Source of the DNA: Candidatus Acetothermia bacterium
Lineage (GTDB): Bacteria > Bipolaricaulota > Bipolaricaulia > Bipolaricaulales > Bipolaricaulaceae
Direction of reading: 5' to 3'
Assembly: GCA_024653305.1 (NCBI GenBank)
Contig: JANLFW010000001.1
Location: 93,780 to 157,779, forward strand
Length of the DNA stretch: 64,000 nucleotides
This document shows, piece by piece, positions 42,235 through 53,226 of this stretch (its first letter is position 1; every line of letters starts with the position of its first letter). The translations under genes were made by a program, and so were the position numbers. Under the pieces are notes generated by a model that was given only the letters and a program-made list of their open reading frames with translations, ran no database searches and was not told where the DNA came from.

Positions 42235-42387
42235 CCTGGGTCGTCGTGCCCCCCTTGGGTAGGATGAGCCAGCCGAAAGTAGGCCGGAAATGCAAAGGGG
42301 GGTGATTCAAGTTACAGACGAAGGACGCCGTTTGGCGATAGACTGCTTTCCTGGATGGAAGGGATTGCCATAAGTAAGGAGGTCGAT

Positions 42388-44571
42388 ATGGTGAGGAAGA
42401 TCAGCCTGTGGACCTTGATCGTCCTCGGGGTCGCCCTGCCCCTGCTCGGTCAGGGGTACTTCGAGGTGGCCCAGGGGACGGTCAAGGCCGCCGTGCCGCC
42501 GCTCGCGGGCACCACGGGAGCCCGGGAGTTCTATGGCTATGACCAAACGCAGTTCTCGTCCACCAACCCGCTCACGGAGTCCCGCGCCACCGTGATGTTC
42601 CTGTACCGGGAGCCCACCGGGCAGCTTTTCCTGTTCATCATCCACGACAAGCCCGTGGCCGGTGCCGGGGGAAGGGTCCAGTTCGGCATCCGCGGTGTCC
42701 CGCTCGGGGCGGACTTCATCGTCCAGGACGACCCGTCCAACATCAACCCCACCGACCGCTACGACATCGCCGGCGGGCAACTGGCCTGGGAATGGGGGTC
42801 GCCCCGCACCGACGGGGGCGTGCTGGGGCCCCTCGGGGAGGAGTTCGAGATCACCCTGACCCCGGCCCAGATCACCGGCATCCAGCGCATCGTGTTCCTG
42901 TCGGGGAACATCGCCGCCCCCACCCGGACCGAGCTCAACATCACCGATCCCATCACCATCCGCGGTCTGCGGAACCAACCGCCGGTGCCCAAGCTCACCG
43001 TCACCCCAGCCGCCCCACGGGCGCGCCAGGAGGTGGTGTTCGACGCCTCCGGAAGCTACGACCCGGACGGCCGCATCGTCGAGTACCGGTGGGACTTCAA
43101 CGGCGACGGGACGGTGGATCTGGTGAGCACCGAGCCCGTGGTCCGCTACACCTATGCCGCCGGCGGCCCGTACAACGTCCGGCTCCTGCTCGTGGACAAC
43201 GCGGGGATGGAGGCGACCTACACGGCCCCCCTGTACGTGTCCCCGATCACCGTCACCGCCACCCGCTCCATCTCCACGAACGCCGCCCTCCCCGGGACCA
43301 CGTTCCGCGTCCAGGTGCGCATCCACACCGATCAAGACCTGGTGGGCGCGGGCCTCGACGAGGACCCGCCGGTGGGGTGGGAGATCACCCCGGTGGCCAA
43401 CGCCGGCGCCGTGTTCAAGCGACCCACCCTGCAGTGGGTGTTCCTGGACACGATCAAGGCCGGCAGCGAACGGGTCATCATCTACGACGTCACCGTGCCC
43501 AAGGTGGAGCTCCTCGCCTCGATTCGCCTGCCGCAGCAGTTCTGCATCACCGGCGTGTTCCAGGCCAAGGTGCCGGACATCGTGGTCGAGGTGCTGGGCG
43601 AGTCCTGCTTCATCGTCAACGATTGTCTCCCGATGCTGGACGCGATCGCCCACCTCGTGCCCGCCGCCGCCCCCGGGGAGCCGGACCGGATCGACCTGCG
43701 TCTGGCGGAGTCCATCACCGATGCCCAGCTCATCCGGGCCGGGGAGCTGTGGCGCACCGATCGCCCGGTGGTGGCCACGTGTGGGGAGCGGATCAACCTG
43801 GAGCAGTTGAAGCTCATCACCGCCTACGCCGCCTCCTGCACCCCGGTCGACCAGCCGCTGCCGAGCATGCCCGCGGCCAAGGTGACGGCCCGGCGGACCA
43901 TCATCACCCCCATCCCCTGCGAGGGCGTGGTGATCGGGTTCTACGACTCCATGGGCAACGCCATCGGCAACAAGTTCACGGTTAAAGTGGAGATCACCAC
44001 CGACAAGGACGTCTATGGGGTGGGCCTCGACGAGGACCTGCCCGTGGGGTGGCGGGTCACCCCGATCCAGAACGATGGCTTTCTCTACAAGCCGGGCGTG
44101 GACCAGTGGGTGTTCACCGGCACCCTGCGCGCCGGCCAGACCAAGACCGTCATCTACCAGGTGGAGGTGCCCCCCACCATCACCGTGGAGACCACGCCCC
44201 CGGATCCGTGCCGGGTGCTGTCGGCGGAGACGGTGGTGGGCCGCGTGGACACTGGGCTGCCCTGCGTAGAGGCGGACGTCCTTGGGCAGAGCCGGGTCGA
44301 GCTCACCGATTGTTTGTCGGTGATCGTGGCCATCTCCCGATGGGACGTGGCCCGCGAGGGCATCGACCTCTCGCTCTCCGACAAGATCACGTTCCCCCAG
44401 GTCCAGCGGGCGATCGCGTTCTGGCTGGAGGACACCCCTGTGCCCCGGACCTGCCCGCCGGGGGTGGTGGACTACGAGACGATAAAGAAGATCATCGCCA
44501 TGTGGCTCACCGGCACCCCGATCTGCGAGCTTCTTCCGGGGCAGGTGCCCGGGGTGTGCGAGGGCCGGTAG
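42388..44571 (+). CDS. Secreted modular protein: PKD domain and two copies of an Ig-like + dockerin-like unit
   Basis: A 727-residue exported protein. A signal peptide (RKISLWTLIVLGVALPLLGQ) is followed by an unassigned ~180-residue domain and a PKD domain (~205-290; FDASGSYDPDGRIVEYRWDF). Two copies follow of a beta module holding GLDEDPPVGWEITP (~304-370) and GLDEDLPVGWRVTP (~527-592). Each copy leads into a paired-helix block: ITDAQLIRAGELW and INLEQLKLITAYA, then ITFPQVQRAIAFW and VDYETIKKIIAMW. The helix pairs with trailing TPV/TPI resemble dockerin-type repeats but lack the Ca-binding Asp pattern. Paired cysteines occur in each unit. It is probably a surface or matrix protein. ATG 42388 has AAGGAGGT 5 bases upstream. 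Confidence 0.75.
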   Translation: MVRKISLWTLIVLGVALPLLGQGYFEVAQGTVKAAVPPLAGTTGAREFYGYDQTQFSSTNPLTESRATVMFLYREPTGQLFLFIIHDKPVAGAGGRVQFGIRGVPLGADFIVQDDPSNINPTDRYDIAGGQLAWEWGSPRTDGGVLGPLGEEFEITLTPAQITGIQRIVFLSGNIAAPTRTELNITDPITIRGLRNQPPVPKLTVTPAAPRARQEVVFDASGSYDPDGRIVEYRWDFNGDGTVDLVSTEPVVRYTYAAGGPYNVRLLLVDNAGMEATYTAPLYVSPITVTATRSISTNAALPGTTFRVQVRIHTDQDLVGAGLDEDPPVGWEITPVANAGAVFKRPTLQWVFLDTIKAGSERVIIYDVTVPKVELLASIRLPQQFCITGVFQAKVPDIVVEVLGESCFIVNDCLPMLDAIAHLVPAAAPGEPDRIDLRLAESITDAQLIRAGELWRTDRPVVATCGERINLEQLKLITAYAASCTPVDQPLPSMPAAKVTARRTIITPIPCEGVVIGFYDSMGNAIGNKFTVKVEITTDKDVYGVGLDEDLPVGWRVTPIQNDGFLYKPGVDQWVFTGTLRAGQTKTVIYQVEVPPTITVETTPPDPCRVLSAETVVGRVDTGLPCVEADVLGQSRVELTDCLSVIVAISRWDVAREGIDLSLSDKITFPQVQRAIAFWLEDTPVPRTCPPGVVDYETIKKIIAMWLTGTPICELLPGQVPGVCEGR

Positions 44572-44654: not shown

Positions 44655-45317
44655 ATGAGAACTGCGATCGTAGCGTGTTTGGCAAGCATGACCGTAATTG
44701 GCTTGGCCAATGGGGTAACGGTGGTCCCATCGACGTTCATCCCCGCTCCTGGGGCGGAGATCACCCTCCAGGCCGTGGGGGCACCTGCCGGGGCCACGTT
44801 CCGTTGGGATCTGGGCGCCGACGGCCGGCCGGATGTGACCACCGACCAGCCGTGGGTGCGGTGGACGGTGCCCGCCGGGTACTGGGAAGTCGGCCTCGAG
44901 GTCGTCCAAGGTGGGAGGATCGTCGATCAGGCCAAGATTGCGGTGGTGGCCGACGCCCGCCTGGGCGCGGTTCGGACCGTGCAGTGGGTGAACGGAGCCT
45001 TGGAGATCACGGTCACCGTGCTGGCCAAGGTCCGTCTCCTCGGTCCCGGGGTTGTGGAGGACATACCCCTGGGCTGGGTGGCAACCGCGTCTGGACCTGA
45101 AAGCGCCCTTGCCAAGGTGAATGAGAAGAATCAGATTGAGATCCTTGTGCCCAGTTTGGAGCTGCAGCCTGGCGAGGAGGCGACGATACGGTACCTCCTG
45201 TACCCGCCGTCACTTGACGCCAGAGCCCGGTTCACAGGATGGGTCACCGGTTACTCCAGCGGTGATGGACGTGTGGAGCGGGTCGAGGTTCCTGTGGCAG
45301 GGACGGTGACGTTCTAG
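44655..45317 (+). CDS. Secreted protein related to the preceding modular protein
   Basis: A 220-residue exported protein with a signal peptide (RTAIVACLASMTVIGLANG). The middle resembles a PKD-type fold (GAPAGATFRWDLGADGRPDV, WTVPAGYWEVGLEVVQGG). The C-terminal half has one divergent copy of the beta module of the upstream protein: GVVEDIPLGWVATA aligns with GLDEDLPVGWRVTP, and LQPGEEATIRYLLYPP with the upstream RAGQTKTVIYQVEVPP. It lacks the helical dockerin-like part. The two genes therefore probably arose from a common modular set. Its TAG shares a CTAG with the convergent phospholipase-D-like gene. Confidence 0.7.
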   Translation: MRTAIVACLASMTVIGLANGVTVVPSTFIPAPGAEITLQAVGAPAGATFRWDLGADGRPDVTTDQPWVRWTVPAGYWEVGLEVVQGGRIVDQAKIAVVADARLGAVRTVQWVNGALEITVTVLAKVRLLGPGVVEDIPLGWVATASGPESALAKVNEKNQIEILVPSLELQPGEEATIRYLLYPPSLDARARFTGWVTGYSSGDGRVERVEVPVAGTVTF

Positions 45318-46369
45318 CGCAGAGGGCGTCCCGTCGTCCACAGCTCCTCGAACATCAGGGTTAGCGGTCGGCCAAGCTCGGGGACCCCGAGGAGGGCGAG
45401 GCCGGCCTCCACGTTGCGCGCGAGCGAGTAGTACGACCAGTTGGCCGAGGTCACCATCACGTCCCGCTCGTCCACGATCAGGCACTTGGCGTGCAGGGTG
45501 GTCCCGGGCGGGTCGAACCGCACCGCCGCCCCGCACGTGGTGAGGTACGCTGCGCTGAGCCGGTTCTCCTGGGCGAGGTCGGGGAAATCCTCCCCGCCCT
45601 CGAGGAGGACGCGGACCTGGACCCCACGGGCGGCGGCGGCGCACAACGCGTCCACGATCCGGTTCGCGGGGCTGTCCGCGAACTGGGGGTAGTAGACGAG
45701 CCGGTACAGGAGCACATCCACTCGCCGGGCCGCCCGGGCGATGAGCTCGGGGATCACCGACGCGTGCAGGTTCCCCTCGGGAAGGTCGAACAAGGGCACC
45801 AGCGCCGGCTCCGGCCACGGCGGCTCCGAAAGCCGGGGTCGGGCCCGCAACCTCCCGTCCCAAAGGAGATCGAAGAACACGGCGAGGAAGGCGGCCAATT
45901 CCGGCGAATCCACGGCCAGGTCCACCTGGACGCTCCGCTCCAACGCCGACCACGTCCAGTGGGTGGACCCGATCACCGCCCACCGCCCGTCCACCACCAG
46001 GAACTTGGCGTGCAGGGTCACCTCCGGGTCATCCCCCGCCACCTCCACGCCCCTGTCCCTGAGGTACGCGACCGCCGCTTCCTGCTCCCGGTAGGGTTCC
46101 CCTTCCCGGCGTTCGACCAGCACCCGCACCCGGACCCCGCGCCCGGCGGCGGCGACGAGGGCGTCCAAGAGGGGCAGGGTAGCTCCGTTCCCGTACAGCC
46201 GCATGTCGGAGAGCGCGATCTGGATCTCCTCTTCGGCGGAGGCAATGAGCTCCAAAACCAGGTCCACGTACGCGGGCTGCCCGGGGCGGGTGACCAGGGG
46301 GGCCACCGGCATCGCCCACATCGCCCCCGTCCAGGCCAGAACCAGCACGACAATGGCGACCCTGTTCAT
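45314..46369 (-). CDS. Secreted phospholipase D-like protein
   Basis: A 351-residue exported protein with a signal peptide (RVAIVVLVLAWTGAMWAMP) and two PLD active-site motifs: HAKFLVVDGRWAVIGSTHWT and HAKCLIVDERDVMVTSANWS, each HxK(x4)D. It should be a monomeric two-HKD phosphodiesterase acting outside the cytoplasm; substrates of such enzymes include phospholipids and nucleic acids, so the target is open. The start at 46369 has no spaced ribosome site. A -10-like TATCAT lies 8 bases before the ATG and overlaps the -10 of the divergent Lon-like gene. Confidence 0.85.
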   Translation of the reverse strand: MNRVAIVVLVLAWTGAMWAMPVAPLVTRPGQPAYVDLVLELIASAEEEIQIALSDMRLYGNGATLPLLDALVAAAGRGVRVRVLVERREGEPYREQEAAVAYLRDRGVEVAGDDPEVTLHAKFLVVDGRWAVIGSTHWTWSALERSVQVDLAVDSPELAAFLAVFFDLLWDGRLRARPRLSEPPWPEPALVPLFDLPEGNLHASVIPELIARAARRVDVLLYRLVYYPQFADSPANRIVDALCAAAARGVQVRVLLEGGEDFPDLAQENRLSAAYLTTCGAAVRFDPPGTTLHAKCLIVDERDVMVTSANWSYYSLARNVEAGLALLGVPELGRPLTLMFEELWTTGRPLR

Positions 46370-46376
46370 CCCTGGG

Positions 46377-46383
46377 TATGATA
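46377..46383. promoter_or_regulatory. Symmetric bidirectional -10 element TATGATA
   Basis: The 21 bases between the divergent starts at 46369 (minus) and 46391 (plus) contain TATGATA. It reads TATGAT toward the plus gene and TATCAT toward the minus gene, each ending exactly 8 bases before an ATG. -35 matches are weak on both sides. Both messages would be leaderless. Confidence 0.6.
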
Positions 46384-46390
46384 CTGGGCC

Positions 46391-48796
46391 ATGGTCGAGG
46401 TGCTGACGCCGGATCGGCTCCGCCGTGCTTGTGACCCCCGCTCTTTTTCGTTCGCCACCACCGATGAGCTGGAACCGCTGTCGGGGATCATCGGCCAAGA
46501 TCGGGCGCTGGAGGCGTTGTACGTCGGCCTGCGCATCAAGGATCCCCGCCATCGCTACAACATCTTCGTGTCCGGCGAGCCGGGGCTCGGCAAGACGTCG
46601 GCGGTGACCCACTTCCTGGCCAAGGTGTCCCGCGACCAACCCACCCCGCCGGACATCTGCTACGTCCACAACTTCCACGTGCCGCACGCCCCGCGGTACC
46701 TCCTCCTCCCGGCGGGGCGCGGCCGGGAGCTCAGGGCAGACATGGACCGGTGCGTGGAGTTCCTGGCCCGGGAGCTCCCCAAGGTGCTGGAGTCAGAGGA
46801 GTTCAAGGCCCGGGCCAAGAAGGAACGGGAGCGCTTTGCCGCTGAGCGGGACGGGATCTTCCACGACCTCGAGGCGCGGGCGGCGGCGCTGGGGTTCACC
46901 GTTCAACGGACCCCAGTGGGCATCAACACCATCCCCCTCAAGCCCGACGGTGCCCCCTACTCCCAGGAGGAGTACGAGTCCCTGCCCGCTGAGGAACGGG
47001 CGGCGATCCTCCGCCGCCAGGAGGAGCTACAGGAGCTGGTGCGCGACACGTTCCAGAGGCTCGGGCAGCTCGAGGAGGCGTGGCAGGAGGCCCAGCGGCA
47101 CCTGACCAAACAGGCGGTGCAGTTCCTCATCGAGCCTCGGTTCGCCCAGCTCCGCGCGAAGTACGCGGATCTGGATCGGGTGCAGACGTTCCTCTCGGAG
47201 GTCCAGGCGGACATCGTGGAGAACGTGGAACAGCTTCAGGCCGCCAATAAGAAGCCCCCCTTGCCGGTGCCCATGCTGGAAGGGATGGATCGGTTCCACC
47301 GGTACCGGGTGAACGTGATCGTGGATCGCTCCGGGACGGAAGGGGCACCGGTGGTGGTGGAGGAGAACGCCACGTACACGAACCTGGTCGGCACGGTGGA
47401 ACGGAAGGTCCAGTTCGGGGTGGTGACCACCGATTTCACCCAGATCCGCGCCGGGTCCCTGCACCGGGCGAGCGGCGGGTATCTGGTGCTGTCGGCGACC
47501 AACCTCCTCCGGTTCTCGCTGAGCTGGGAGGCGCTGAAGATCGCGCTCAAGACCGGGGAGATCCGGATCGAGGACCCGGCCCAGATGCTCGGGTTCGCCT
47601 CCACCGAGGGCCTCAGGCCGGAGCCAGTGCCCCTGGACGTGAAGGTGATCGTCATCGGCTCCCCGTACCTCTACCACCTCCTGCACTCCTACGACGAGGA
47701 CTTCCGGAAGCTTTTTACCATCCGGGCCGACTTCGACACGGAGATGCCGTGGACCGAGGACGCCCCCCTCGCCGTGGCCCGGTTCATCCGGGCGCGGCGG
47801 GACGAGGACCCGTCCGTCCTCCCGTTCGCCCCGTCCGGGGTGGCCCGGGTGGTGGAGTACGCGGCCGAGCTCGCCGGAGACCAGAAGAAGCTGGCCACCC
47901 GGTTCGCCTCCCTCGCGTTCCTCGTGAAGGAGGCGAGCTTTTGGGCCCGCGAGGCCGGGGCCGCGGTGGTGGACGGGGAGCACGTGCGGGTGGCCATCAA
48001 CAAGGGGCGCTCCCGCCACTCCCTGATCGCGGAGAAGGTACGGGAGTGGATCGCCCGCGGGAAGCTCATGGTGGACGTGCACGGGGCGACGGTGGGGCAG
48101 GTGAACAGCTTGGCCGTGATCGACCTCGGGGAGATGGCGTTCGGCAAGCCGAGCCGGATCACGGCCAACGTGTTCACCGGAAAAGATGGGGTGGTGGACA
48201 TCGAGCGGGAGGCGGAGCTGGGGGGGAAGCTGCACACGAAGGGGGTCATGATCCTCAAGGGGTACCTGGGGGCCAAGTTCGCCCGGCAGAAACCCCTCTC
48301 CCTGGCGGCCAGCCTGGCCCTGGAACAGTCGTACACCGGGGTCGAGGGGGACTCCGCGTCCGCCGCCGAGCTCTATGCCCTCCTCTCCGCACTCGCCGGC
48401 GTTCCCCTCAAGCAGGGGATCGCCGTGACCGGGGCCATCGATCAGAAGGGGCGTCTGCAACCGATCGGCGGGGTCAACGAGAAGATCGAGGGCCACTACC
48501 TCGTGTGCAAGGAGCTCGGCCTCACCGGGGACCAGGGGGTGATCATCCCCCGCGGCAACGTGGACGACCTCATGCTCCCCGAAGAGGTGGTGCAGGCGGT
48601 GGCCGAGGCCCGGTTCCACGTGTGGGCCTGCGACACGGCCGACGAGGGGATCGAGCTCCTCACCGGGATGGCGGCCGGGGAGCCGGACCCGGAGGGGAAC
48701 TACCCGCAGGGAACCCTGTTCTACCTCGTCGCACGGCGGCTCGAGGAGATCCGGGAGAGCCTGCGCACGGCGGAGGAGAAGGACGAGGGCGACTGA
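46391..48796 (+). CDS. Lon-related AAA+ protease (LonB-like, AAA_32 type)
   Basis: An 801-residue ATP-dependent protease of the Lon-related family with a large N-terminal AAA_32 region. Walker A is SGEPGLGKTS (near residue 60). A long helical insertion (~140-280) follows, then the second ATPase part. The C-terminal Lon protease domain has the Ser-Lys dyad in GVEGDSASAAELYALL (Ser) and IGGVNEKIEGHY (Lys). It lacks the N-terminal substrate domain of LonA and any membrane helices seen in archaeal LonB. It degrades misfolded or regulatory proteins in the cytoplasm. The ATG at 46391 lies 8 bases after a -10 box and has no ribosome site. Confidence 0.9.
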   Translation: MVEVLTPDRLRRACDPRSFSFATTDELEPLSGIIGQDRALEALYVGLRIKDPRHRYNIFVSGEPGLGKTSAVTHFLAKVSRDQPTPPDICYVHNFHVPHAPRYLLLPAGRGRELRADMDRCVEFLARELPKVLESEEFKARAKKERERFAAERDGIFHDLEARAAALGFTVQRTPVGINTIPLKPDGAPYSQEEYESLPAEERAAILRRQEELQELVRDTFQRLGQLEEAWQEAQRHLTKQAVQFLIEPRFAQLRAKYADLDRVQTFLSEVQADIVENVEQLQAANKKPPLPVPMLEGMDRFHRYRVNVIVDRSGTEGAPVVVEENATYTNLVGTVERKVQFGVVTTDFTQIRAGSLHRASGGYLVLSATNLLRFSLSWEALKIALKTGEIRIEDPAQMLGFASTEGLRPEPVPLDVKVIVIGSPYLYHLLHSYDEDFRKLFTIRADFDTEMPWTEDAPLAVARFIRARRDEDPSVLPFAPSGVARVVEYAAELAGDQKKLATRFASLAFLVKEASFWAREAGAAVVDGEHVRVAINKGRSRHSLIAEKVREWIARGKLMVDVHGATVGQVNSLAVIDLGEMAFGKPSRITANVFTGKDGVVDIEREAELGGKLHTKGVMILKGYLGAKFARQKPLSLAASLALEQSYTGVEGDSASAAELYALLSALAGVPLKQGIAVTGAIDQKGRLQPIGGVNEKIEGHYLVCKELGLTGDQGVIIPRGNVDDLMLPEEVVQAVAEARFHVWACDTADEGIELLTGMAAGEPDPEGNYPQGTLFYLVARRLEEIRESLRTAEEKDEGD

Positions 48797-48812
48797 CCCC
48801 TTGGGGTCAGTC
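48791..48812. terminator. Palindrome containing both convergent stop codons
   Basis: GACTGACCCC-TT-GGGGTCAGTC is a perfect palindrome. The plus-strand TGA at 48794-48796 ends the Lon-like protease and the minus-strand TGA at 48809-48807 ends the SHMT-GcvT fusion. Each is preceded by the same Asp codon. It can act as a terminator for both genes. Confidence 0.6.
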
Positions 48813-51800
48813 CTCCCCGGCCATCGGCAGCGCCTCCCGCTTGAGAAACCGCGACACCGTCTTGCCCCACACCACGAGGGGCAGGCGCGCCCCGGGCCGG
48901 ATCTCCCGCGGCAGTTCCCTGTCCCCGATCACGAACCCAAGCGGGGTGCCCTCGCCCACACCGCGGCGGTCGAGCAAGGCCATCCCCACCTGGCCGTTCT
49001 CCAGGACCACGCAGCTCGTGACCGTGCCCACGACGTGGCCGGTTCGGTCCACCACCGGCGCCCCGGCGCGGACCGGGCGCTGCCCGGGATCAATGGCGAA
49101 CCGCACCACCTCCCGGGACGGGCGGCCCAGGGCGCGAAGGTAGGCGGCTCGCCCCACGAAGAACGCCTTGTGCAGCTTCACGTACGGGGCGAACCCGGCC
49201 TCGTGGGGCCACACCCGGTGCTCGCCCCCAAGCTCATGGCCGTACAGGGGCAGCCCGGCCTCGGTGCGCAGGGAGTCCCGGGCGGCGAGGCCGCACGGCA
49301 CCACCCCAAGCCCCTTGCCCGCATCCAGGATGAGGTGCCAGATTTCCTCCGCCTGGGATGGGGGGACGAGGAGCTCGTAGCCCATCGGCTCCCCGGTGTA
49401 CCCGGTGCGGGCACAGAGGACCGAAGCGCCGTCGATCGTGACCTCCCGGAACTCGGTGCGGCGCAACGCGATCAACCGGTGCTTGTCCCGCCCCGCAAGG
49501 AGGCGCAACAGGACGGCCCGGGACGCCGGGCCTTGGAGGGCCAGGTCGACCCGCCCGCCCGCGGCACCAGGGGCCTTGAGGTCACGCAGGTCCACCGGGC
49601 CGTCGGGCTCGACCCACGGCCGGTCCGGGTCGAGGAGGACCCGCCCAGAGTTGACCGCGTTGAGCCAGTCCCAATCCTTGCCCTCGTTGGCCGCGTTCAC
49701 CACGAGGAGGAACCCGTCCTTCCCCGTCCGGTAGACCATGAGGTCGTCGATGACCTCCCCGTCCGGGGCAAGGAGGAACCCGTACTGGGATTGGCCGGGA
49801 TGGAGCCACCCCGCGTAGTTGGTGGTCACCACGTTGAGGAAGCCCTCCGCGTAGCGGCCGGCGACCTCGAAGGCGCCCATGTGCCCGAGGTCGAACAGGG
49901 CTGCTCGCTCCCGCACCGCCCGGTGCTCGTCCAGGGCCGACGTGTACCACAGGGGCATCTCGTACCCGGCGAACTCGGCCATCCGTGCCCCGAGGGCCCG
50001 ATGGACCTCGGCGAGCGGGGTCCTCTGGAGGGGCCGCTCCGGGGCCTGCGGCCGGTAGGACTCCTTCGTGGCAGGGACGACGAACAGGTGCTGGCCCACG
50101 AAGTACGGTTTGCCGAGGGCGAACAGCTCGGGGTGGCGGGCGTAGATGGCCTTGGCGTCCCCGCTCAGGCCGAGGAACGGCTCCGGTGGGTGGCGCCGAC
50201 GCCCCGCCTCCTCGGCGCTCACGACCAGGATGCGGCCGCCCCCGTCCAGCGCCAGGCCTTCCTTCCCATCGCGGAGGAACGCGGGACGCAGGCCGTGGGC
50301 GGAGAGGTCGTCCACGGCCGCCGGGCCCTGGACCTTGCGGTAGATGTCGGCCGGATCGAACAGCACGTACCCATCGGACAGGGCGGAAAGCCACCGCTTG
50401 AGAGCCTCGCCGGTCTCCGGAGGGGCGAGGACGAGGAACCGCTCCCGGCCGAGGTCGTCGTCGGGGAGACGGCCCACGATGGCCTCGGACAGGACGTTCC
50501 CCTCACCGTCAAGGAACAGGGTCCTGCGGGCATGCCCAGGGTCAAGGCACAGCACGCTCGCCGTGCCCGCCTCGTGGAGGAGGTGGGCGGCCCGCCCGCC
50601 CCGCACGAGGAGGGCCACGCAGTCCCCGAGGTCGACGTGCTTGCCCGCCGCAGCCGTGCGGTGGGGCGAGTCGGCCCGGACCACGGCGGGGACCCCGCCG
50701 AACCGGGCCAGGAGGGCCTGCACCCGCTGCCGCGCCTCCTCGAGCACGGGAAGGGGGAGCTTCCCCCGCGGGAGAGGCCCGCCCGCCCCGTGGTACGTGA
50801 ACGGACGGATTGCGGTGAGGACCATCCCCGTAACCTCGGCGATCTCTTCCATCTCCGCCTCCCCCATCCCGCGCTGGGTGGCCCAGGGGGTCCCGTACCG
50901 GATCCCGCGGGCGTCGGCGGCGGAGGTGTCCCCGGGAATCGTGTTCTTGTTGGCCACAAGGCCGGCGAGGTCGAGGATGCGGGCCGCGGTCTCCCCCGCG
51001 AGCGGCTCTCCATTGGGGGTCGCGACCCCGCGCAGGTCGAGCACGAGGAGGTGGGTGTCCGTGCCCCCGTACGCGAGGCGTAGCCCGCGTGCGGCGAGGG
51101 CGTGGGCGAGGTGGCGGGCATTGTCCACGATCCGGTGCATGAGATCGCGGAACGCGGGAGTCCGAGCAAGCTGGAACGCGCAGGCGATGGCGGCGAACTT
51201 GTTCACATGGGGCCCCCCTTGGGCCCCGGGGAACACGGCGGCGTCGATGCGGGCGGCGATCTCCGGATCACAGGACAGGATCACCGCCCCACGCGGGCCG
51301 CACAGGGTCTTGTGGGTGGTGAACATGACCACGTCCGCGTACCCGATCGGGTTCGGGTAGGCCCCGGCGATGGCCATCCCCGCCACGTGGGCGATGTCGG
51401 CCATGAGGAACGCCCCACACGCGGACGCGATCTCCCGGAACGCCCGCCACTCCGGGGCCCACGGGTACGAGGTGTACCCGGCAATGACCATCCGCGGGCG
51501 GTGCTCCTTGGCCAGGGCCATGATCCGGTCGTAGTCCAAGCGCTCGCTCGCAGGGTCCGCCCCGTACGTCACCACCCGATACCGCCGGCCCGATTGGTGG
51601 AACGGGGACCCGTGGGAGAGGTGCCCCCCCTGAGCGAGGTCCATGGCCAGGATCGTGTCCCCGGGCCGGAGCAACGCCTCGTAGATCGCCATGTTCGCTG
51701 CCGCCCCGGACAGGGCTTGGACGTTCGCGAAGATGTCGTCCGCCCCTACCTCGGCGGTGGCAAAGCACTCCGCCGCCCGCCGGCAGGCCAGCGCCTCCAC

Positions 51801-52109
51801 GAGGTCGGCGAACTCCACGCCCTTGTAGAACCGCCGGTCACTGTACCGGCGGAAGTACGCGAGCTGTTCGGCGATATCGCTCAGACGCGCCTCGGGGAGG
51901 CGCAGCATCTCCTCCCTGGGATACCCTTCCGCGTAGATCGAGGTGAACGCCGACCCCAGGGCCTCGCGCACCGCCCGTGGGGTCAACGATTCGGACGGGA
52001 TCAGGATGATCTTGTCCCGCTGCCGCGCCTCTTCCGCCCGGACCAGTCCCTCAAGCGCCCGGTCGATCTCCGTCAGCCCCAGCTCCCAGATCGCACGTTC
52101 CTCGTCCAT
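48807..52109 (-). CDS. glyA-gcvT: Fused serine hydroxymethyltransferase - glycine cleavage T protein
   Basis: An 1100-residue fusion. Residues 1-~470 are a complete SHMT: IILIPSESLTPRAVREALGS, RRFYKGVEF, and the PLP-lysine motif VMFTTHKTLCGPRG (Lys267). Residues ~690-1100 are a complete GcvT aminomethyltransferase: FAGYEMPLWYTSALDEHRAV, LFDLGHMGAFEV, TGYTGEPMGYELLV, and the C-terminal barrel. Between them ~200 residues look like a worn GcvT/YgfZ-type half (LFLDGEGNVLSEAIVG and on). SHMT makes glycine and methylene-THF from serine; GcvT makes methylene-THF from aminomethylated H-protein. Both share THF, so channelling is plausible. GcvH and GcvP are not in the window. The ATG at 52109 has AGGAAGG upstream. 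Confidence 0.93.
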   Translation of the reverse strand: MDEERAIWELGLTEIDRALEGLVRAEEARQRDKIILIPSESLTPRAVREALGSAFTSIYAEGYPREEMLRLPEARLSDIAEQLAYFRRYSDRRFYKGVEFADLVEALACRRAAECFATAEVGADDIFANVQALSGAAANMAIYEALLRPGDTILAMDLAQGGHLSHGSPFHQSGRRYRVVTYGADPASERLDYDRIMALAKEHRPRMVIAGYTSYPWAPEWRAFREIASACGAFLMADIAHVAGMAIAGAYPNPIGYADVVMFTTHKTLCGPRGAVILSCDPEIAARIDAAVFPGAQGGPHVNKFAAIACAFQLARTPAFRDLMHRIVDNARHLAHALAARGLRLAYGGTDTHLLVLDLRGVATPNGEPLAGETAARILDLAGLVANKNTIPGDTSAADARGIRYGTPWATQRGMGEAEMEEIAEVTGMVLTAIRPFTYHGAGGPLPRGKLPLPVLEEARQRVQALLARFGGVPAVVRADSPHRTAAAGKHVDLGDCVALLVRGGRAAHLLHEAGTASVLCLDPGHARRTLFLDGEGNVLSEAIVGRLPDDDLGRERFLVLAPPETGEALKRWLSALSDGYVLFDPADIYRKVQGPAAVDDLSAHGLRPAFLRDGKEGLALDGGGRILVVSAEEAGRRRHPPEPFLGLSGDAKAIYARHPELFALGKPYFVGQHLFVVPATKESYRPQAPERPLQRTPLAEVHRALGARMAEFAGYEMPLWYTSALDEHRAVRERAALFDLGHMGAFEVAGRYAEGFLNVVTTNYAGWLHPGQSQYGFLLAPDGEVIDDLMVYRTGKDGFLLVVNAANEGKDWDWLNAVNSGRVLLDPDRPWVEPDGPVDLRDLKAPGAAGGRVDLALQGPASRAVLLRLLAGRDKHRLIALRRTEFREVTIDGASVLCARTGYTGEPMGYELLVPPSQAEEIWHLILDAGKGLGVVPCGLAARDSLRTEAGLPLYGHELGGEHRVWPHEAGFAPYVKLHKAFFVGRAAYLRALGRPSREVVRFAIDPGQRPVRAGAPVVDRTGHVVGTVTSCVVLENGQVGMALLDRRGVGEGTPLGFVIGDRELPREIRPGARLPLVVWGKTVSRFLKREALPMAGED

Positions 52110-52131
52110 GGCCTTCCTTTCCGGCCTGAGT

Positions 52132-53226
52132 TTACCCGGGAAACGAAAGCGGACGGCAGCGGACCTCGCGGTCCGCATTGAGCCAGGCCAGCTCGGCCGC
52201 GAGGTACATCCCCCCCGAGACCAGGCAATGCCCCCCGAGGAGGAACGGCGTCGGGGCCTCGGCGCAGGCCCGCACGAGATCCCTTAGGAAGGGGTGGCCG
52301 ACCTTGTCGTACTGGAGGAGATCCGCTGCAAACCGCTCCTCCGCCGGCGGCCACGTGCCGAGGTGGGCCATGAGGACGCGGGTGTCCCACACCACTCCAT
52401 CGCCGAGCTCGCTTAGGACCTGAACGAGGCGTACCGGTGATCCGACGACGATCCCGAGGAGCGACCGCACCGCCCCCCGCTCGGCCCGCCCGCTCGCCTC
52501 CATCCCCCGCTCCTCGGAGAGCACCCGCACCCGACACGCCGCTTCCATCTCCAGGTAGCGCAGGAGGTGTCCCCCCACCCGCCCGAGGAGGAGGACCTCC
52601 GCCTCGGGATCGGCGAGGAGCCGGACCACGTGCCGGGCGCGTTCGGTGGGGATCTCCGCCAGCACGCGGCGCAGGCCATCCGGAAGGTCGGGGTGGAGGG
52701 CGAGGACTTGGAGCTCGCCTGGGGTATCGATGTCGAGCTGGGTGGCCGCGGAGCGGGGGAGCTCATAGCACACATACCCGGCCTGCCAGAGGCGGATCCC
52801 GAGCGGGTTATCCCGGGCGAGGTCGGCCACCGGGCCCGGGGGGGCGATGAGCGCGAAGTCGGTGGAGTAGAAGTTGTTGAGCACCGCGTACGGGGGCGGG
52901 CACGGGGCCGCGGTCACCACGCGGTCCAGTTCATCGTCCCCAAGGAGGAACGCGCTCCCGGCGGAGACGTACAGGAGGCGCTCCGGGCGGTACTTCCGGA
53001 CGAGGTCGTTGAGGCGGGCCCCGTACCGCCACGGTCCAGGCGGATCCGGTTCCACCGTCGCCGCTGTGCCCTGCCACGGGCCGAGGACCGGGGTAGACAC
53101 CACCACCTGGGCAACGGCGGGATGGCGAGCGAGCCGGCGAACGAGGGCCCGGGCGGCCTCGGTGCGGGCCCGCCCGACCACGTCCTCCCCCCCACGATCG
53201 AAGAGGAAGACGACGACCTCCGGCAT
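52132..53226 (-). CDS. Unknown protein with nucleotidyltransferase-like N-terminal half
   Basis: A 364-residue cytoplasmic protein. The N-terminal ~180 residues read like a nucleotidyltransferase/glycosyltransferase-A fold of the CofC or MobA kind: PEVVVFLFDRGG, AVAQVVVSTPVLGPW, RYRPERLL-type strand then YVSAGSAFLLGDDELDRV, and QLDIDTPGELQVLAL (the DIDTPEDL motif). The classical nucleotide loop LxxGxGxR is missing, so activity is doubtful. The C-terminal half (VLLLGRVGGHLLRYLEMEA and on) is unassigned. It sits 4 bases after rpsR in the rpsF-ssb-rpsR operon, where rplI normally lies, and before glyA-gcvT. Confidence 0.6.
   Translation of the reverse strand: MPEVVVFLFDRGGEDVVGRARTEAARALVRRLARHPAVAQVVVSTPVLGPWQGTAATVEPDPPGPWRYGARLNDLVRKYRPERLLYVSAGSAFLLGDDELDRVVTAAPCPPPYAVLNNFYSTDFALIAPPGPVADLARDNPLGIRLWQAGYVCYELPRSAATQLDIDTPGELQVLALHPDLPDGLRRVLAEIPTERARHVVRLLADPEAEVLLLGRVGGHLLRYLEMEAACRVRVLSEERGMEASGRAERGAVRSLLGIVVGSPVRLVQVLSELGDGVVWDTRVLMAHLGTWPPAEERFAADLLQYDKVGHPFLRDLVRACAEAPTPFLLGGHCLVSGGMYLAAELAWLNADREVRCRPLSFPG

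Follow-up and report, generated by a model that had tools for sequence, protein, structure and literature searches.

The heptamer TATGATA, located between a Lon-like protease gene and a divergent gene for a secreted phospholipase D (PLD)-like protein, is probably the shared −10 element of a bidirectional promoter, which would be used in one orientation at a time and would give rise to two mRNAs with leaders of 0–2 nt. As judged from sequence, the locus holds a real, conserved, and very compact bidirectional promoter driving two predicted leaderless or near-leaderless mRNAs. It lies in a 64,000-nt stretch of DNA (hereafter, the window) from a “Candidatus Bipolaricaulota” MAG of 1.59 Mb and roughly 70% GC. 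The nearest named relatives are “Candidatus Bipolaricaulota”/Acetothermia MAGs, and the Lon protein is 97% identical to that of a Bipolaricaulaceae bin.

The gap between the divergent start codons comprises 21 nt (46370–46390) and reads CCCTGGG-TATGATA-CTGGGCC, with TATGATA in the centre, 7 nt from each start codon. CAT at 46367–46369 is the minus-strand ATG of the PLD-like gene, and ATG at 46391–46393 is the plus-strand start of the Lon-like gene. The latter (46391–48796, +) encodes a LonB-like ATP-dependent protease of 801 aa with AAA_32, LonB AAA-LID, and Lon_C domains, in an open frame of 804 aa. The PLD-like gene (45314–46369, −) encodes a protein of 351 aa with two PLDc_2 domains bearing HxK(x)4D motifs and a signal-peptide-like N-terminus. 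On the evidence of the reading frames, both start codons are well founded, since a TGA in frame with the Lon ATG is located within the −10 element itself (46379–46381, +) and excludes an upstream Lon start, and an in-frame stop is found closely upstream of the PLD ATG in several relatives, in which the open frames are just 351–353 aa (G005, G010, G012, G018, G029, and G032–G035). Neither start has a spaced Shine–Dalgarno (SD) sequence; an AGGG motif touches the PLD ATG at zero spacing. The surroundings of the locus include a 1123-aa ORF at 48807–52178 (−), in which a serine hydroxymethyltransferase (GlyA, residues ~108–448) is fused to an aminomethyltransferase (GcvT, ~723–995). At 42355–44571 (+), a protein of 738 aa is encoded that has a PKD domain, a signal-peptide-like N-terminus, and repeated dockerin-like tracts, the latter likeness being judged by eye only; a shorter related ORF is located downstream of it.

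The core (46377–46383) reads as TATGAT in the Lon direction (46377–46382, +) and as TATCAT in the PLD direction (46378–46383, −), each 8 nt before the respective ATG. Re-reading of the sequence thus reproduced the geometry described in the initial annotation, namely start codons 21 bases apart, TATGATA in the middle of the gap, both −10 elements 8 nt before an ATG, and no spaced SD on either side. The two hexamers are shifted by one base relative to each other, and A46378 and T46382 serve both of them. Therefore, −11A and −7T, which are the most important positions for promoter melting, are formed on both strands by one set of two base pairs, and this reciprocal coincidence is the mark by which bidirectional promoters are recognized. 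Starts at the optimal distance from the −10 element would fall at 46389 and 46371, each two bases before the ATG; if transcription began at the A of each ATG, the distance would be 22 bp, so that the predicted start separation is 18–22 bp. The predicted +1 zones, derived from the −10 position and a published spacing rule (PMC10268837), are 46389–46391 (+) for the Lon mRNA and 46369–46371 (−) for the PLD mRNA. Thus, “leaderless” should be read here as a leader of 0–2 nt. Read in this way, the spacing fits the two leaderless mRNAs that had been proposed: A2 of TANNNT is located at −13 from the ATG on both sides, within the range of −14 to −8 given for leaderless (TA-led) genes (PMC3160421), and SD is absent upstream of both starts. 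The pattern CAY-N7-TATNATA-N7-RTG was found once in the 1.59-Mb genome, at the Lon/PLD locus, and at 11 sites in 61 genomes, 6 of which were the Lon/PLD locus. The backward control pattern had no sites in this genome and 2 across all genomes searched.

Genome-wide statistics were calculated on 800 kb of stretches with 758 predicted genes, using a home-made gene finder with imperfect start calls. TANNNT upstream of the predicted starts peaked at −16 to −12 (73 of 758 genes, vs 13–16 in distant five-base windows), and a separate SD peak was observed at −15 to −10. At −26 to −22, TANNNT was found in 40 genes, a region into which ordinary short-leader promoters also fall. According to these sequence statistics, leaderless-type promoters are a real class in this genome, comprising roughly 5–8% of the genes, although the simplicity of the gene finder limits this estimate. 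When such promoters were chosen by TANNNT position alone, T−35 was present in 59%, G−33 in 49%, and G−14 in 66% of them. These unselected features match the conserved flank of the core on the Lon side. Our literature search found no study of leaderless genes in Bipolaricaulota.

Outside the core, the promoter is asymmetric in sequence, with G−14 and the −35-like T and G facing Lon only. G−14, which is half of an extended −10 element, is located at 46375 (+) and was found in 36/36 loci of family f1 and 23/24 loci of the sister family f2. The −35-like TGGCGA (46354–46359, +) is separated by a 17-nt spacer and lies within PLD codons 4–6; anchored on the core, T−35 was retained in 32 and G−33 in 34 of the 36 f1 loci. 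A mirrored −35 for PLD was sought within the Lon gene and was not found. The consensus promoter scan detected nothing at its threshold, because the −35 is weak. We favour the interpretation that PLD codons 5–6 (Ala-Ile) are conserved as part of the −35, since T−35/G−33 is a genome-wide pattern and is absent from PLD genes split from Lon; nevertheless, this conservation may partly reflect the coding constraint of the signal peptide. Scored with a matrix built from the genome's own leaderless-type promoters, with the Lon/PLD locus left out, the Lon direction with its flanks ranked at the 96th percentile among genomic TANNNT sites, and the PLD direction, with weak flanks, ranked at the 87th; the family medians were at the 91st and 63rd percentiles, respectively. 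The promoter probably favours Lon, and PLD would use the opposite face of the same −10 element. Of the symmetric bidirectional promoter put forward in the initial annotation, the two-way −10 core was retained, whereas the symmetry did not extend to the flanks.

In 36 of the 40 genomes of family f1, the two genes were neighbours and the gap could be read. The core was TATSAT in all 36 and the full TATSATA in 28, the heptamers being TATGATA (24), TATCATA (4), TATGATT (7), and TATGATC (1). The middle base was G or C in every locus and never A; in the other leaderless-type −10 elements of this genome, A is the commonest middle base (36/61). The distance from the core to the PLD start codon was 7 nt (32 loci) or 6 nt (4 loci), while the spacing on the Lon side ranged from 4 to 20 nt. 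In 23 loci (genera g1, g5, g10, and g12), Lon had no SD and the distance to its ATG or GTG was 7–8 nt, with one locus at 4 nt. In the other 13 (g2, g3, g7, g8, g9, and g13), Lon was SD-led, with an AGGAG-type SD and a distance of about 18–20 nt. Thus, alignment across the relatives agreed with the expectation that the element is kept where the pair is kept, in f2 in another register. The equal 8+8 spacing around TATNATA, also expected, held for the core and the PLD side and failed on the Lon side in the loci with an SD and in the one at 4 nt.

On the Lon protein tree with f2 and f7 as the outgroup, the 23 leaderless-type loci formed one group (SH-aLRT 98), for which one change suffices. Since every outgroup locus with a clear state was SD-led, SD-led Lon is probably ancestral, and its leader was probably lost once, with the same −10 element being retained. 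By its sequence layout, PLD is leaderless-type throughout family f1, also in genomes where it has been separated from Lon. In G004, G006, and G011, PLD is located elsewhere and still has TANNNT 5–9 nt before its ATG; its leaderless layout is thus independent of the Lon neighbour. In G017, no clear PLD orthologue was found. Lon standing alone in G004, G011, and G017 is SD-led. The first T of the PLD −10 element has been lost in g13, g7, and G008, which is a weak point for a promoter working in both directions.

In family f2, the gene pair flanks CAT-N6-TASAATNNTA, and Lon is SD-led in nearly all loci (two were unclear). On the minus strand, the terminal NNTA completes a second TANNNT, which is often part of a perfect palindrome (CTAGAATTCTAG). 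The two bases required by the PLD direction only, T and A, were in the same register in 21 of the 24 anchored loci; in the remaining three, they were closer by one base (TAGAATCTA). The overlapping TANNNT pair was therefore present in 24/24 anchored f2 loci, and the overlap is conserved together with the gene pair in both f1 and f2. The PLD ATG in f2 is about 10 nt from the hexamer, and its mRNA is thus expected to carry a short leader of about 3–4 nt. The overlapping layout was likewise present in f7 (TAAGATTATA), where PLD is farther off and has a leader. Given their presence in f2 and f7, the overlapping divergent −10 elements of this locus predate leaderless Lon.

Overlapping divergent TANNNT pairs are not confined to this locus. 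They were found in 27 of 65 divergent gaps of 10–300 nt, compared with 13.8 in shuffles, an excess of about twofold, and occurred in registers +1, −4, and −2; a count of 27 was reached in 1 of 200 shuffles. By this count, shared −10 cores are a wider habit of this genome. One further candidate is a RimP-like/pseudouridine-synthase-like divergent pair (G000 C4:11657–11707) around ATTATACT, 8 nt from the minus-strand start, which is possibly another shared −10. There was no support for the double-leaderless layout being common, as just two of the 85 divergent pairs were clear cases. The second case, outside the window (G000 C1:162848–162867), is the gene pair for a PHP-domain protein and a flavodoxin-like protein, with a 20-nt gap, overlapping −10 elements (AGTATAAT), and 6+6 spacing to the start codons. 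This arrangement is present in both g1 genomes, and in several relatives in which the flavodoxin gene is not the neighbour, the PHP side is still leaderless-type.

We propose that TATGATA is the −10 core of a single bidirectional promoter of the housekeeping sigma factor, which RNA polymerase would bind in either orientation and never in both together. Rightward, G−14 and the weak −35 would help to produce the mRNA of the Lon-like protease; leftward, polymerase would rely mainly on the shared −10 element to produce that of the secreted PLD-like protein. Both mRNAs, with leaders of 0–2 nt, would be translated from the start codon without SD. The proposal is favoured by the near-constant distance between the core and the PLD start against a varying Lon side, and by the reciprocal coincidence of −11A and −7T, which in shared −10 bidirectional promoters defines the class with starts 18 bp apart (PMC10268837). 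The TANNNT peak with its matching flank features, the TANNNT of the split PLD genes, the overlapping −10 elements at the same place in f2, and their excess in the divergent gaps of this genome point in the same direction. It is weakened by the lower score of the PLD direction, which has neither a −35 nor G−14, and by the fact that any TATGAT yields part of the symmetry for free, as its −11A and −7T serve both strands.

A one-way promoter, in which TATGAT serves Lon only and the PLD −10 is a by-product of near-symmetry, is unlikely. PLD would then have a promoter within the Lon gene and a leader devoid of SD, or would scarcely be transcribed. The strength of the organism-specific features toward Lon alone and the decay of the PLD −10 in g13, g7, and G008 agree with such a promoter. 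However, it does not account for the PLD-start spacing being held in 36/36 loci while that of Lon varies, for the close TANNNT of PLD genes split from Lon, or for the retention in f2 of the bases needed by the PLD direction only; in addition, a longer PLD leader would have no SD to rely on. It is highly improbable that both directions fire with short leaders or from other starts, so that initiation is of a non-SD short-leader kind and not strictly leaderless. The optimal −10 to +1 distance, which implies a 2-nt leader on both sides and also tells against a strictly leaderless reading of the shared promoter, and the f2 spacing speak for this; nevertheless, A2 of each −10 lies within the range of bacterial leaderless genes (PMC3160421), and a very short leader has no room for SD anyway.

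The initial annotation had also proposed a coupling of two stress-type genes through a single opening event. In favour of this idea, the −10 element is indeed shared, and 36 of the 40 family genomes have the two genes side by side. However, at bidirectional promoters of E. coli, polymerase is engaged in just one of the two orientations at any moment; at basal activity, neither side affects the other, and strong activation of one side can repress the other (PMC12825309). Since opposing polymerases cannot share the site, coupled opening is not expected, and any coupling would be competitive. The flanks are asymmetric, three family genomes have the two genes at separate places, a fourth lacks PLD, and no sign of stress regulation was found. 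We therefore give this idea almost no credence. A related and doubtful possibility, rated as quite improbable, is that the core has been retained as a balanced, mutually exclusive switch, in which the orientation of polymerase selects the cytoplasmic Lon-like protease or the secreted PLD-like enzyme, each made from an mRNA for which SD is dispensable, as a recurrent gene-pair design in Bipolaricaulota. The invariable G or C in the middle of the core, where A would favour one strand, and the PHP-domain protein/flavodoxin pair are consistent with it.

If confirmed, the shared promoter would come near the lower size limit of a divergent gene-control unit, with 21 bp accommodating the promoter core for both genes and next to no leaders. 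The family provides a natural series with the same core, Lon SD-led or leaderless, the pair joined or split, and two core registers in sister families, which allows direct tests of the effects of leader loss and −10 sharing. In addition, the genome comparisons support, for Bipolaricaulota, both the existence of leaderless genes and an enrichment of overlapping divergent −10 elements.

Bidirectional promoters have been defined by opposite-strand TSSs 7–25 bp apart (Warman et al., 2021, as cited in PMC12825309 and PMC10268837). Those with a shared −10 resemble the Lon/PLD locus in the near-symmetric −10, the coincident −11A and −7T, and predicted starts 18–22 bp apart. The promoters described there are usually leadered, and one RNA is often non-coding; at the Lon/PLD locus, unlike in these, both predicted RNAs are mRNAs starting no more than 2 nt from the start codon across a 21-nt gap. 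In lysG/lysE of Mycobacterium tuberculosis (PMC5648196), divergent genes likewise have overlapping promoters and one leaderless transcript; however, the gap is 108 bp, the pair is regulator-controlled, and the leaderless transcript originates from a separate second promoter. TA-led genes carry TANNNT about 10–12 nt upstream (PMC3160421). With them, including those of Deinococcus-Thermus (PMC12340547), the locus shares A2 at −13, the absence of SD, and the ATG start, and switching between SD-led and TA-led orthologues is also known (PMC3160421; PMC12340547). It differs from them in that one −10 would serve two genes and in its host phylum, Bipolaricaulota. Thus, by its sequence features, the locus combines a known shared −10 promoter with known leaderless genes, and what is new is that both predicted products are leaderless or nearly so.
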